A stretch of DNA of 36,291 nt, from assembly GCA_012719345.1 (NCBI GenBank), contig JAAYAN010000128.1, positions 1-36,291 of the forward strand, written 5' to 3'. The translations under genes and the position numbers were made by a program. Below, piece by piece: positions 33,385 through 36,126 of the stretch. Origin of the DNA: Ignavibacteria bacterium (GTDB taxonomy: Bacteria; Bacteroidota; Ignavibacteria; Ignavibacteriales; Melioribacteraceae). The first letter of the stretch is position 1, and each line of letters begins with the position of its first letter. Below the pieces are notes generated by a model that worked only from the letters and a program-made list of their open reading frames with translations, was not told the DNA's origin and made no database searches.

Positions 33385-35154
33385 TTATCTTAGTAAACTC
33401 ATCTTTTTTGTCATTGTGTAATTTCCAGCTTCTATCTTGTAAAGATAAACTCCGCTTGAAAGAGCCGATGCATCAAAATCAACTTTATACGTTGCTGCAT
33501 TTTGCTGTTCATTTACTAAAGTTGCAACCTCTTTCCCTAATACATCATATACTTTCAACGTTACCATTGAAGCTTTAGGGATAGAATATGTAATAACAGT
33601 TGAAGGGTTAAACGGATTTGGAAAGTTCTGTTCCAAAGCAAACTCTTTTACTTCGTTTGAAATAACTTCTATAGCATCTGGACAACGAGGAAAATGATAA
33701 TAATAAGAATTTATGCCTTCATATTCACTTGCTTTCTGTGCTTCCCATTCAGCATACTGTGAAGGAAACCAGTTTAAGTCGCCTATTGGAAAACCTCCCA
33801 AACCGGCAGTTAAAAATTCAGGATTACTGTATGACAAATCTACAGGTATTGGGAAATCTGCATAAACAAAATAATCTACAATTGGAGTGAATACTAAACG
33901 CCAGTTTGGTAATGTGGCAACTGACGCTGTATCTACGCAAGCTAAAGCATAGGTTTTTAGATTATTCAGCTGAGTATTAAATAAATCCTGAGGCTCAGTA
34001 AAATTCGGCTGAACGCCTTCAATCCACTCTCCATTACAAAGGTAAGGGTAGTTACAATCATCTGCAAACATATCTGCAGTTCTGCTGTTCATTATAATTC
34101 TTTGCGAATACCATTCTGTTGTTAGATTAACGTGATTTTCTATTAAAGTTGGGATATAATCATCCCATATTGGCGACCAATAAACTGCATTTTTATCAGC
34201 ATAGAAAGTTATTCCGTTTTCCCGGGCAAGTGAATCATCATAAACATTTACTAATCCCATTGGTAAACCATCAACATCACCATATCCACTATCTTCAAAT
34301 TGGTTAAGCGAGCAATGTGCCTGAACATTTGAATTAACAAACAAGTTGTTTGTTAAGCTTATATTTCCGGTATTACCCATATTCATAAATAAACTGCCTG
34401 CACAGTTAATAAAAGTATTGTGGTTAAAAATAGATCTGTTAACAGTGTATCCGCTTCTGAATCTAAACAAGTCCCCTTGAGCATTAATAACTGTGTTATT
34501 TTCAAAAACTATAGTATCCTGATTTGCAAAATAATCAATAATTCCGCCGTTACGTCTGTAAGGCGATCCAACTAAATTAACAATATAATTATCTTTGAAA
34601 ATAACTTTTGAACCTGCTTTAGGATTAATCATACACCATTGATTATGCTCCAGAATACAATTTTGAACTGTTAATCTTGAATTTGGTTCACCGCCGAATA
34701 ATGTCCATCCAAGTAATCCGCCTGGGTTTCCTACATTTGCACTTATGTTCTTAACAAGGAGATCATATCCGCTTTTTATGCCCACATAAAAAAATGTGCC
34801 TTCACAAACATATCCGCTTAAAACTGCTGGGGAATCTTTACTTTTTCTTAACTTAATCGATTCATTGCTCTCACCCATAATGATAATTTTCTTTCCATTA
34901 GATGTTGTTGGAATATTTGTTACAGGGTACCACCCATTATCTTTCAATAAATAGACACGTCCATCCGGAACATTTACTGAGTCAGCATTAATTGCTTCGT
35001 ACAAAGAATTTGCCTGGTCTCCCATATCAGCGAAATCTTTAATTACAAGAGTATCACCTTTAATTTCGTCAACCCACTCTGCATAAGCTGCTTGACCGTA
35101 AGCTGCAACTTGTAATAGTACAAACAAACTGCAAAGTAACATCATTTTTTTCAT
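33385..35154 (-). CDS. T9SS-exported right-handed beta-helix protein
   Basis: The 589-residue protein has a signal peptide (MLLCSLFVLLQVAAYG, cleaved before QAAY). Residues of about 90-300 show parallel beta-helix character: repeated short strands with stacked Asn and aromatic residues (NSRLTVQNCILEHNQ, VIFKDNYIVNL, IVFENNTVINA, SIFNHNTFIN, ISLTNNLFVNS). A linker follows, and the last ~85 residues are a type A sorting domain (FALEQNFPNPFNPST start, YDVLGKEVATLVNE, LSSGVYLYKIEAG, ending KKMSLLR). It is therefore secreted or surface-attached by the type IX system. The beta-helix suggests carbohydrate binding or a lyase, but no catalytic signature is visible. GGAGG precedes ATG 35154. Confidence 0.9.
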   Translation of the reverse strand: MKKMMLLCSLFVLLQVAAYGQAAYAEWVDEIKGDTLVIKDFADMGDQANSLYEAINADSVNVPDGRVYLLKDNGWYPVTNIPTTSNGKKIIIMGESNESIKLRKSKDSPAVLSGYVCEGTFFYVGIKSGYDLLVKNISANVGNPGGLLGWTLFGGEPNSRLTVQNCILEHNQWCMINPKAGSKVIFKDNYIVNLVGSPYRRNGGIIDYFANQDTIVFENNTVINAQGDLFRFRSGYTVNRSIFNHNTFINCAGSLFMNMGNTGNISLTNNLFVNSNVQAHCSLNQFEDSGYGDVDGLPMGLVNVYDDSLARENGITFYADKNAVYWSPIWDDYIPTLIENHVNLTTEWYSQRIIMNSRTADMFADDCNYPYLCNGEWIEGVQPNFTEPQDLFNTQLNNLKTYALACVDTASVATLPNWRLVFTPIVDYFVYADFPIPVDLSYSNPEFLTAGLGGFPIGDLNWFPSQYAEWEAQKASEYEGINSYYYHFPRCPDAIEVISNEVKEFALEQNFPNPFNPSTVITYSIPKASMVTLKVYDVLGKEVATLVNEQQNAATYKVDFDASALSSGVYLYKIEAGNYTMTKKMSLLR

Positions 35155-35365: not shown

Positions 35366-35618
35366 GAATTTTTCTCCGCTTTCGCAGTTATTTTGTCCGG
35401 CGGTGTACTTATTTTCCGCGGGATTGGAGAAATTTTCTGCGAGGGCGCAGAAGTTTACTACGGCAACGCGCAAATTTTCTCTGATGCCGGACATATTTTC
35501 CACAGCTTCGCGGTTATTTTCTTCACACTCGGAGTAATTTTCCGCGTTAACGAAGAAAATATCCCCGATGACCGGGATTTTAACCCCGGCACCGGTGAAT
35601 TTTTCTCCGGCAAAAAGG
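35366..35618. repeat. Degenerate 21-bp tandem array, 12 phase-locked units
   Basis: On the plus strand a T-rich core (most often ATTTTC) recurs at exactly 21-base intervals. The core C-position falls at 35374, 35395, 35416, 35437, 35458, 35479, 35500, 35521, 35542, 35563, 35584 and 35605. Between cores the sequence is GC-rich and variable, often with CCG or GCG. On the minus strand the unit reads roughly GAGAAAATnnCnnCGnnnnCG. Because 21 is a multiple of three, it reads as heptads on both strands: minus, AENYSEC / EENNREA / VENMSGI / RENLRVA; plus, GEIF or VIF every seven residues. The array starts 23 bases after the stop of the 36126-35641 gene. Spacing is exact and there are no interleaved unique spacers of CRISPR type. 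Confidence 0.9.
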
Positions 35619-35640
35619 CTTACCGGAATATCTTGCTTGA

Positions 35641-36126
35641 TTAGTTTTTACTTGCGGTTACTTCTGGTTTTGCGGATTTGCTGATAAACCTCTGCTTAAG
35701 GTCGGAGGCAATAACTTTTGCAGCGGGGGCGTTTAACCTTGCAGCGTTTTTTACCGAATTATAATAGGAAAGAGCCGAAACATAAGCTTCGCTTCCGGAA
35801 AGCATTATTGTATCATCGAGAGATGAAACCAGCTGCTGCAAAGGACGAAGAAAAGCCTGCAGCGTTTCCACAGCTTCAATATCTTTCTTCATTTCTTCAA
35901 CATCAACATAAGCGGGTGTAAATTCCTTGTTTGTAGTAGCATATTCAAACGCTTTTTTTACAAACGGAATAGTGCCGTCGCCCATTTTAGGTATTGCCCT
36001 TCTTTCATCCGGGGTTATTGCTAAAAGATGAACAGCAAGTTTGTCGTTAATTACCTTAATTGCCGATTGAATTTCGGATGCGGTTTCGGCAGGAATACTT
36101 ACTGATATTTTGTTTTCTGCTACCAT
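35641..36126 (-). CDS. Hypothetical protein, conserved-looking (161 residues)
   Basis: A strong ribosome binding site (GAAAGGAG) precedes ATG 36126. The product has no signal peptide or membrane segment and is mostly helical (ETASEIQSAIKVINDKLAVHL, ITPDERRAIPKMGDGTIPFV, VETLQAFLRPLQQLVSSLDD, GSEAYVSALSYYNSVKNAAR), ending in a basic tail. It looks like a four-helix-bundle protein of a Bacteroidota/Ignavibacteria hypothetical family, but no function is known to me. It stops at TAA 35643-35641, immediately before the 21-bp array. Confidence 0.8.
   Translation of the reverse strand: MVAENKISVSIPAETASEIQSAIKVINDKLAVHLLAITPDERRAIPKMGDGTIPFVKKAFEYATTNKEFTPAYVDVEEMKKDIEAVETLQAFLRPLQQLVSSLDDTIMLSGSEAYVSALSYYNSVKNAARLNAPAAKVIASDLKQRFISKSAKPEVTASKN

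Follow-up and report, generated by a model that had tools for sequence, protein, structure and literature searches.

Gene-linked 21-bp dyad arrays of constant spacing and variable sequence in Ignavibacteria and Bacteroidota: candidate docking elements for an adjacent gene product

The DNA analysed in this work, referred to as the window, is the whole of a 36,291-nucleotide stretch (contig C136) of an Ignavibacteria bacterium genome of 4.02 Mb in 323 contigs. The features considered are listed in Table 1 and include a gene for an uncharacterised protein, designated X, and, behind its stop codon, a row of 21-bp units. On the far side of this array, a gene starts approximately 210 bp away whose protein bears a T9SS sorting tail and matches a beta-helix below threshold; it is probably a chance neighbour of the array.

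Table 1. Coordinates of features in the window and the analyses applied to them
Feature	Coordinates	Strand	Remarks
589-aa protein with T9SS sorting tail	33385-35154	-	
21-bp array, twelve units	35366..35618	.	autocorrelation, shuffles, consensus, dyad score
Gap between X stop and array	35619..35640	-	22 bp; intrinsic terminator search
Gene X, 161 aa, uncharacterised all-helical family	35641..36126	-	homolog searches, AF2 model

Self-comparison of the window placed all twelve units of the array in a single phase. Identity was 0.556, 0.526 and 0.521 at lags of 21, 42 and 63 bp, respectively, and the mean of these values (0.534) was compared with 2000 shuffles (0.253, sd 0.017, maximum 0.314), giving a z of 16.5. 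When lags of 6-199 bp were ranked over the whole window, the top four (126, 84, 105 and 21) were all located at the array, and lags that are not multiples of 21 ranked next and were located elsewhere in the window. The twelve-unit array is confirmed as real. Its core columns carry T in 12/12 and 11/12 units and C in 11/12, followed by C in 11/12 and G in 10/12. The first-pass annotation had described a core recurring in all twelve units without a phase slip; the phase was kept throughout, whereas the core itself is degraded in units 10 and 11 (35556 and 35577). On the minus strand the consensus unit reads CCGnaGAAAATttCtnCG, with a dyad centred on an A4/T4 tract (dyad z 4.9; mirror control z -1.0). 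Tandem Repeats Finder did not detect the array, even at a score of 30, because the units share only about 55% identity, and similar arrays may therefore be overlooked. Open frames are present on both strands of the array, and a search of its open frame against plasmids returned no match.

The AF2 model of X (pLDDT 89.6, pTM 0.69) is all-helical, with a 55-residue helix and, in comparison with the HU fold, zero strands. Searches of Pfam, NCBIfam, PHROGs and PADLOC with the window X gave nothing significant (weak matches: NCBIfam E 0.061; PHROG E 0.18). A Pfam scan of 50 X members returned weak matches to 12 families, each in at most four members and the best (E 0.00043) in one member. Transposase matches, including IS200/IS605-like Y1, were absent from the 50 members in Pfam and from four members in PHROGs and PADLOC, and neither PF00216 nor PF18291 was among the matches of the window X and the 50 members. 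The best PDB sequence match was to part of IFT70 (E 0.0017), Foldseek with the X model gave no match at E≤0.001 (best E 3.6), and the best VIA Z was 5.2, a score that is uninformative for long helices; a convincing structural relative was not found by PDB sequence, Foldseek or VIA, although X may still adopt a known fold. No recognised DNA-binding domain is present in X, which is slightly acidic (mean net charge -2.8) and gave no hit to Par or Rep in the libraries searched. Purifying selection acts on X: changes concentrate at the third codon position in 7/7 pairs compared (3, 0 and 33 changes at the three codon positions in L124/L130; 4, 2 and 6 in the weakest pair, L127/L129).

Homologs of X were found in 8/79 genomes of the family, 31/395 genomes sampled phylum-wide and 20/60 genomes of genus g116, and the gene is multicopy and sporadic in its distribution. 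The 43 named loci are in Ignavibacteria, Reichenbachiella, Algoriphagus, Maribellus, Draconibacterium and others. A phage or plasmid origin was considered and rejected, as the 144-aa X of L126 had no match among 50,697 phage and 72,556 plasmid records and alignment A1 had no relative in viral contigs. With a possible defence island in mind, the 144 genes lying no more than two genes away from X at the named loci were classified, and the neighbour families listed (the first 25 of 106) included Vsr (3), cytosine methylase (2), HSDR_N (2), integrase (3) and Por_Secre_tail (5); in a comparison set of 142 genes from sampled stretches, scanned with PADLOC only, those listed (the first 25 of 55) included a single type I restriction enzyme and a single DpdE/ZorD-like protein. 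At L065, X adjoins genes resembling, by eye, Vsr, cytosine methylase and ATPases, in a restriction-type cluster. Por_Secre_tail was detected in seven upstream genes, which were chosen after BLAST similarity had been seen there, and an eighth protein was an IS110 transposase. A T9SS cassette was rejected as a description of the locus, since upstream genes at many other X loci appear by eye to be unrelated. In one Melioribacteraceae genome, L057:8733-10173 and L058:8842-10281 form a 1445-bp duplication, 91% identical, that spans the tail of the upstream T9SS gene, X and the 3' flank, and which may reflect exchange between the fronts of T9SS genes. Element ends were not found by empty-site comparison: the downstream gene was common to genomes lacking X, and the upstream side could not be aligned.

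To examine flanking DNA, X loci from three homolog searches and the window genome were pooled and duplicates removed, yielding 91 distinct loci with a usable 3' flank; these do not represent 91 independent events, because many are related and some X are partial. With 29 lags (12-40) compared, the best period was 21 bp in 72/91 X 3' flanks, which bears out the earlier proposal that the spacing itself is conserved. A strong 21-bp period (score ≥0.48) was present in 59/91 3' flanks versus 1/83 5' flanks, and 21 was the best lag at any score in at most 4/83 5' flanks (top six lags). The first 71 loci alone gave 54/71 versus 3/63. Among overlapping tiles placed around X, 89/274 near the X 3' end were strong at 21 bp, compared with 3/738 elsewhere. 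Stretches that had not been selected for arrays contained one 21-bp array in 1.2 Mb from three genomes, at a stricter threshold of 0.52, and in 400 kb of G462, picked so as to cover three known sites, those loci were the only ones. The best period was other than 21 at 19/91 X loci. The first-pass annotation had proposed other copies in the same genome as a test; one of the two other X copies there has a flank of period 21 (contig C75, score 0.50) and the other (C92) does not. Several individual loci departed from the common form. At L093, a terminator-like hairpin (by eye) comes after the member of the X family, and behind the hairpin a 22-bp array takes the place of a 21-bp one; at L092 and L086 X relatives have repeats of 32 bp and 15 bp, respectively, directly 3' of the gene. 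At a locus shared by two genomes, approximately 3 units are present in one (L072, G017:C29) and approximately 13 in the other (L070, G041:C77); X is interrupted in G017, where the stretch contains an assembly gap, and truncated by the contig start in G041.

Arrays at the 59 array-bearing loci were of much the same length, with a median of 11.2 units (IQR 9.0-12.8). At 33 of these loci X and the array are separated by an intrinsic terminator (0 in shuffles, five per locus), so that the array is probably outside the X message there, and this position argues for a DNA element. The suggestion that the array is a 3' UTR element is accordingly not supported in general; in the window, in contrast to those 33 loci, no intrinsic terminator was found in the gap. 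A G-rich unit, GAAGTGGGGAGGGGTACTTC, was found with up to 5 mismatches in 25/91 X 3' flanks and 0/83 5' flanks, a count that is not blind because the motif was derived by eye from some of the same loci. It is absent from the window array. In the 20/59 arrays that carry it, the unit occurs in a single orientation in 18 and lies within 65 bp of the distal array end in 19, L108 being the exception to the distal position. A search of 60 genus genomes with a shortened G-rich motif gave 20 matches (reversed control, 1), of which 7 were at X loci. The other 13 were at nine places without X, eight of them 21-bp arrays and one inside a gene. These eight orphan arrays (L181, L182, L184, L185, L186, L189, L192 and L195) are in Algoriphagus-like genomes; at L189 and L192, two arrays of different unit types are joined at an inverted pair of G-rich units. 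No clear X relic was found at the orphan arrays (X profile, best E 0.96), a weak tblastn match to X (E 0.001, 49 aa) lies approximately 2 kb from one of them, and one orphan array is in a genome rated 100% complete (G178), in which X was not found. The genes beside the orphan arrays encode, among others, a SAP-domain protein, an ApeA HEPN protein and VanZ, showing that such arrays have neighbours other than X.

Array sequence was compared among pairs of related X loci. Two pairs whose X are 98% and 95% identical have 24% and 14% of array 8-mers in common, and other pairs at 92-96% identity share 39-68%. Mean sharing was 0.41 over six X pairs more than 90% identical and 0.09 at 80-90%, and it is possible, on this comparison, that array sequence tracks X to some degree. 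At four loci with the same downstream gene, the array consensus sequences differ. Two aligned pairs of orthologous arrays differ by gaps of 21 bp and 42 bp with scrambled unit order, in keeping with the first-pass expectation that phase would be kept at homologous loci, and 42-bp dimers occur in several loci. Dyad symmetry of the consensus unit averaged z 3.02 (SE 0.23) and exceeded 2 in 41/55 arrays, compared with a mean z of 0.14 and 4/55 arrays for the mirror control. Unit sequence turns over much faster than X, with the period and dyad layout persisting. A protein-coding heptad repeat, also proposed in the first-pass annotation, was rejected: 23/55 arrays have no open frame, the mean number of open frames is 0.84 compared with 0.91 in column-permuted controls, and an open frame is thus not maintained across arrays.

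A second array-linked gene family was met by sampling the window genome, where an array at L256:1472-1610 (G000 contig C56, about 21.47 kb) lies directly behind a HU-HIG gene. Its protein matched PF18291 (E 2e-29, 102.6 bits versus a cut-off of 26.2) and PF00216 (E 7e-9), and the best 3' period of the gene is 21. A search with this protein found the gene in 2/57 family genomes, the 3' flank of the other gene having a weak best lag of 21 (0.45). A PF18291 search of 61 genomes returned 30 loci; the six closest relatives all had a best 3' period of 22 (0.43-0.58), and 23 remoter loci had no comparable 21- or 22-bp period, two of them with a best lag of 21 at background (0.36-0.37). A broader search, for which the close HU-HIG genes were aligned, found members in 17/296 genomes from 10 genera. 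When 20 HU-HIG loci, five of which belong to one genus, were tested on 400-bp flanks with a shorter window, the best 3' period was 22 in 16/20 and 21 in one (window genome); in the 5' flanks the best lag was 21 in three and 22 in one. All ten genera are represented by one or more HU-HIG array loci, weak in some (0.46 in g115 and g157). Arrays are short at the 15 clearer loci, with a median of 3.7 units; a terminator stands before 12/15 of them under a looser rule without a shuffled control, and the G-rich unit is absent from all. Dyad symmetry had a mean z of 2.21 (SE 0.41; mirror 0.55; n=11). By these comparisons HU-HIG is a second, unrelated family with an X-like layout, at 22 bp. It belongs to the HU-HIG subfamily (PF18291) of the HU/DNABII proteins, whereas X itself is not an HU protein, and the open-access matches listed included none bearing the name HU-HIG. 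HU-type proteins bind and bend duplex DNA.

A chromosomal structuring or regulatory element, one of the classes named in the first-pass annotation, is still the best class for the array. Within it, our tentative choice, made with somewhat less than even confidence, is that the array is a cis DNA element that would serve as a docking array for a multivalent DNA-binding protein, likeliest the product of the adjacent gene. Each unit would comprise two helical turns carrying two half-sites in opposite orientation, so that successive sites would all face the same side of the helix and some 11 units would form a regular lattice. The likeliest binder would be X for 21-bp arrays and the HU-HIG protein for 22-bp arrays, and it would read spacing and dyad geometry while depending little on exact sequence. 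Binding by X might build a local nucleoprotein structure acting in autoregulation, anchoring or compaction. In favour of docking are the linkage of arrays to genes and their rarity elsewhere, a period fixed by family, dyad symmetry with independently varying half-sites, the terminators before many arrays, the G-rich end unit and the purifying selection on X. Because two unrelated genes have the same layout, each with its own period of nearly two turns, docking of an architectural protein is the economical reading. The low array similarity between the X pairs that are 98% and 95% identical argues against X reading a fixed site. Against docking are the acidity of X and its lack of a known DNA-binding motif or convincing structural relative, the arrays without X, and the loci with a best period off 21, as well as, for the second family, the shortness of its arrays, the five loci from a single genus and the few 5' flanks with a best lag of 21 or 22.

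Tandem sites spaced by one or two helical turns and adjoining the gene of the protein that binds them are familiar from ParR/parC centromeres and from plasmid iterons with Rep. In those systems the site sequence is conserved and is read by the protein, whereas in the present arrays period and dyad persist and sequence turns over, the unit sequence not being conserved with the protein even where X is 98% identical (24% of 8-mers).

The main rival, which we consider unlikely but a serious contender, is that the arrays are REP/BIME-like mobile or recombinogenic repeats that settle behind the terminators of accessory genes, with X and HU-HIG as passengers or helpers of their spread. PMC2817692 and PMC3733652 describe REP/BIME with RAYT as palindromic intergenic units of alternating orientation, in rows downstream of genes and with one linked protein gene, and the X-linked arrays are likewise dyadic, intergenic and often behind terminators. 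The oriented end unit, the orphan arrays near unrelated genes, the multicopy and sporadic occurrence of X and the 1445-bp duplication that includes X with its 3' flank and the T9SS tail region upstream would also suit such repeats. However, X had no significant transposase match in Pfam, PHROGs or PADLOC, and in particular lacks the tyrosine transposase match of a RAYT. REP/BIME are of high copy, usually >100 per genome (PMC2817692), whereas arrays of the present kind are few in the DNA sampled, differ in sequence from one another and are not copies of each other. The same papers place repeats of 20-40 bp on both flanks of the gene in inverted pairs, in contrast to the tandem 21- or 22-bp period found here behind the gene. 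A period fixed by gene family (21 versus 22) is not predicted by mobile repeats.

An RNA function is improbable, whether the hairpins were lined up in a 3' extension of the X message or in a small RNA of their own. Consensus units are self-complementary, and in the 27 arrays with a consensus A/T run of at least 4 the A-run is on the X-sense strand in 22 and the T-run in 5, a strand asymmetry that could suit a transcript and that the docking model leaves unexplained. However, double changes in the half-sites within 42 arrays numbered 204 compared with 207.5 expected (mean z -0.16, SE 0.19), and two versions of the test revealed no stem covariation above controls; the half-sites vary independently, which fits protein half-sites and not individually maintained hairpins. 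The terminators that precede many arrays also oppose this reading, and Rfam gave no match over the array in the window or in 13 scanned loci, where only tRNA was matched.

A neutral minisatellite, that is, a 21-bp ladder without function kept by slippage and unequal exchange, has little chance of being the explanation. The 21- and 42-bp gaps, the scrambled unit order of the two ortholog pairs and the 42-bp dimers are what such exchange would leave, and the minisatellite alternative of the first-pass annotation is apt as a description of unit gain and loss. It does not account for why the arrays follow one gene family, X, in many genera, nor for the oriented end unit, a dyad layout whose sequence is particular to each array, or the 22-bp ladder of the second gene family.

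The first-pass annotation had also suggested curved DNA, and intrinsic curvature, in which phased A-tracts would bend the locus without a specific protein, fits the window better than it fits the arrays at large. Using wedge angles from the literature, the window array has a predicted bend of 1.05 deg/bp, compared with 0.29 in full shuffles (z 5.3), and a z of 2.0 against period-preserving controls; A/T dinucleotides across arrays cluster at 10.5 bp (mean z 1.0, SE 0.24). Over 42 arrays, however, bend did not exceed period-preserving controls (mean z 0.10, SE 0.16), and 28/55 arrays lack a consensus A-run or T-run of at least 4. Conserved curvature was rejected on these results, and intrinsic curvature is a quite improbable account of the arrays. 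Very improbable is a row of weak terminators protecting X from antisense transcription: X-sense A-runs would be U-runs in antisense transcripts and terminator-like units (16 antisense, 9 sense) exceed column-permuted controls (0.8 and 0.4), but tandem terminators were rejected because no more than 25 of 571 units, both strands counted, resemble terminators.

CRISPR, TIGR-Tas and integron attC arrays share with the present ones a position beside a conserved gene and, in some arrays, one conserved end. They differ in that no unique spacers were seen here, units being homogenised within an array, and in that no effector or integrase is constantly beside the present arrays. The nearest known systems differ from the arrays in a defining feature, namely RAYT with high copy number for REP/BIME and conserved site sequence for iterons and centromeres. 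Gene-linked arrays of this kind were not described in the open-access literature, among the matches listed. The results suggest a partnership between certain genes and adjoining DNA that has apparently gone undescribed.

A general class of self-docking genes in Bacteroidota and Ignavibacteria is possible, although doubtful. Each would consist of a gene for an architectural DNA-binding protein, a terminator and a tandem dyad array, spaced by two helical turns, on which the gene's own product would assemble, with the geometry set by the family (21 for X, 22 for HU-HIG), the sequence nearly free and the array renewed by unit exchange. In that case X would be a new family of nucleoid-associated proteins. 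If the arrays are mobile repeats instead, they would still constitute a repeat class with a protein partner that was not found in the literature searched. If they are docking arrays, the conserved information in a bacterial DNA element would be its spacing and not its sequence, and the period of an array would be a readout of the geometry of whichever protein uses the array. An unannotated family present in 31/395 genomes would gain a testable function, and the study of HU-type proteins would gain a new handle.
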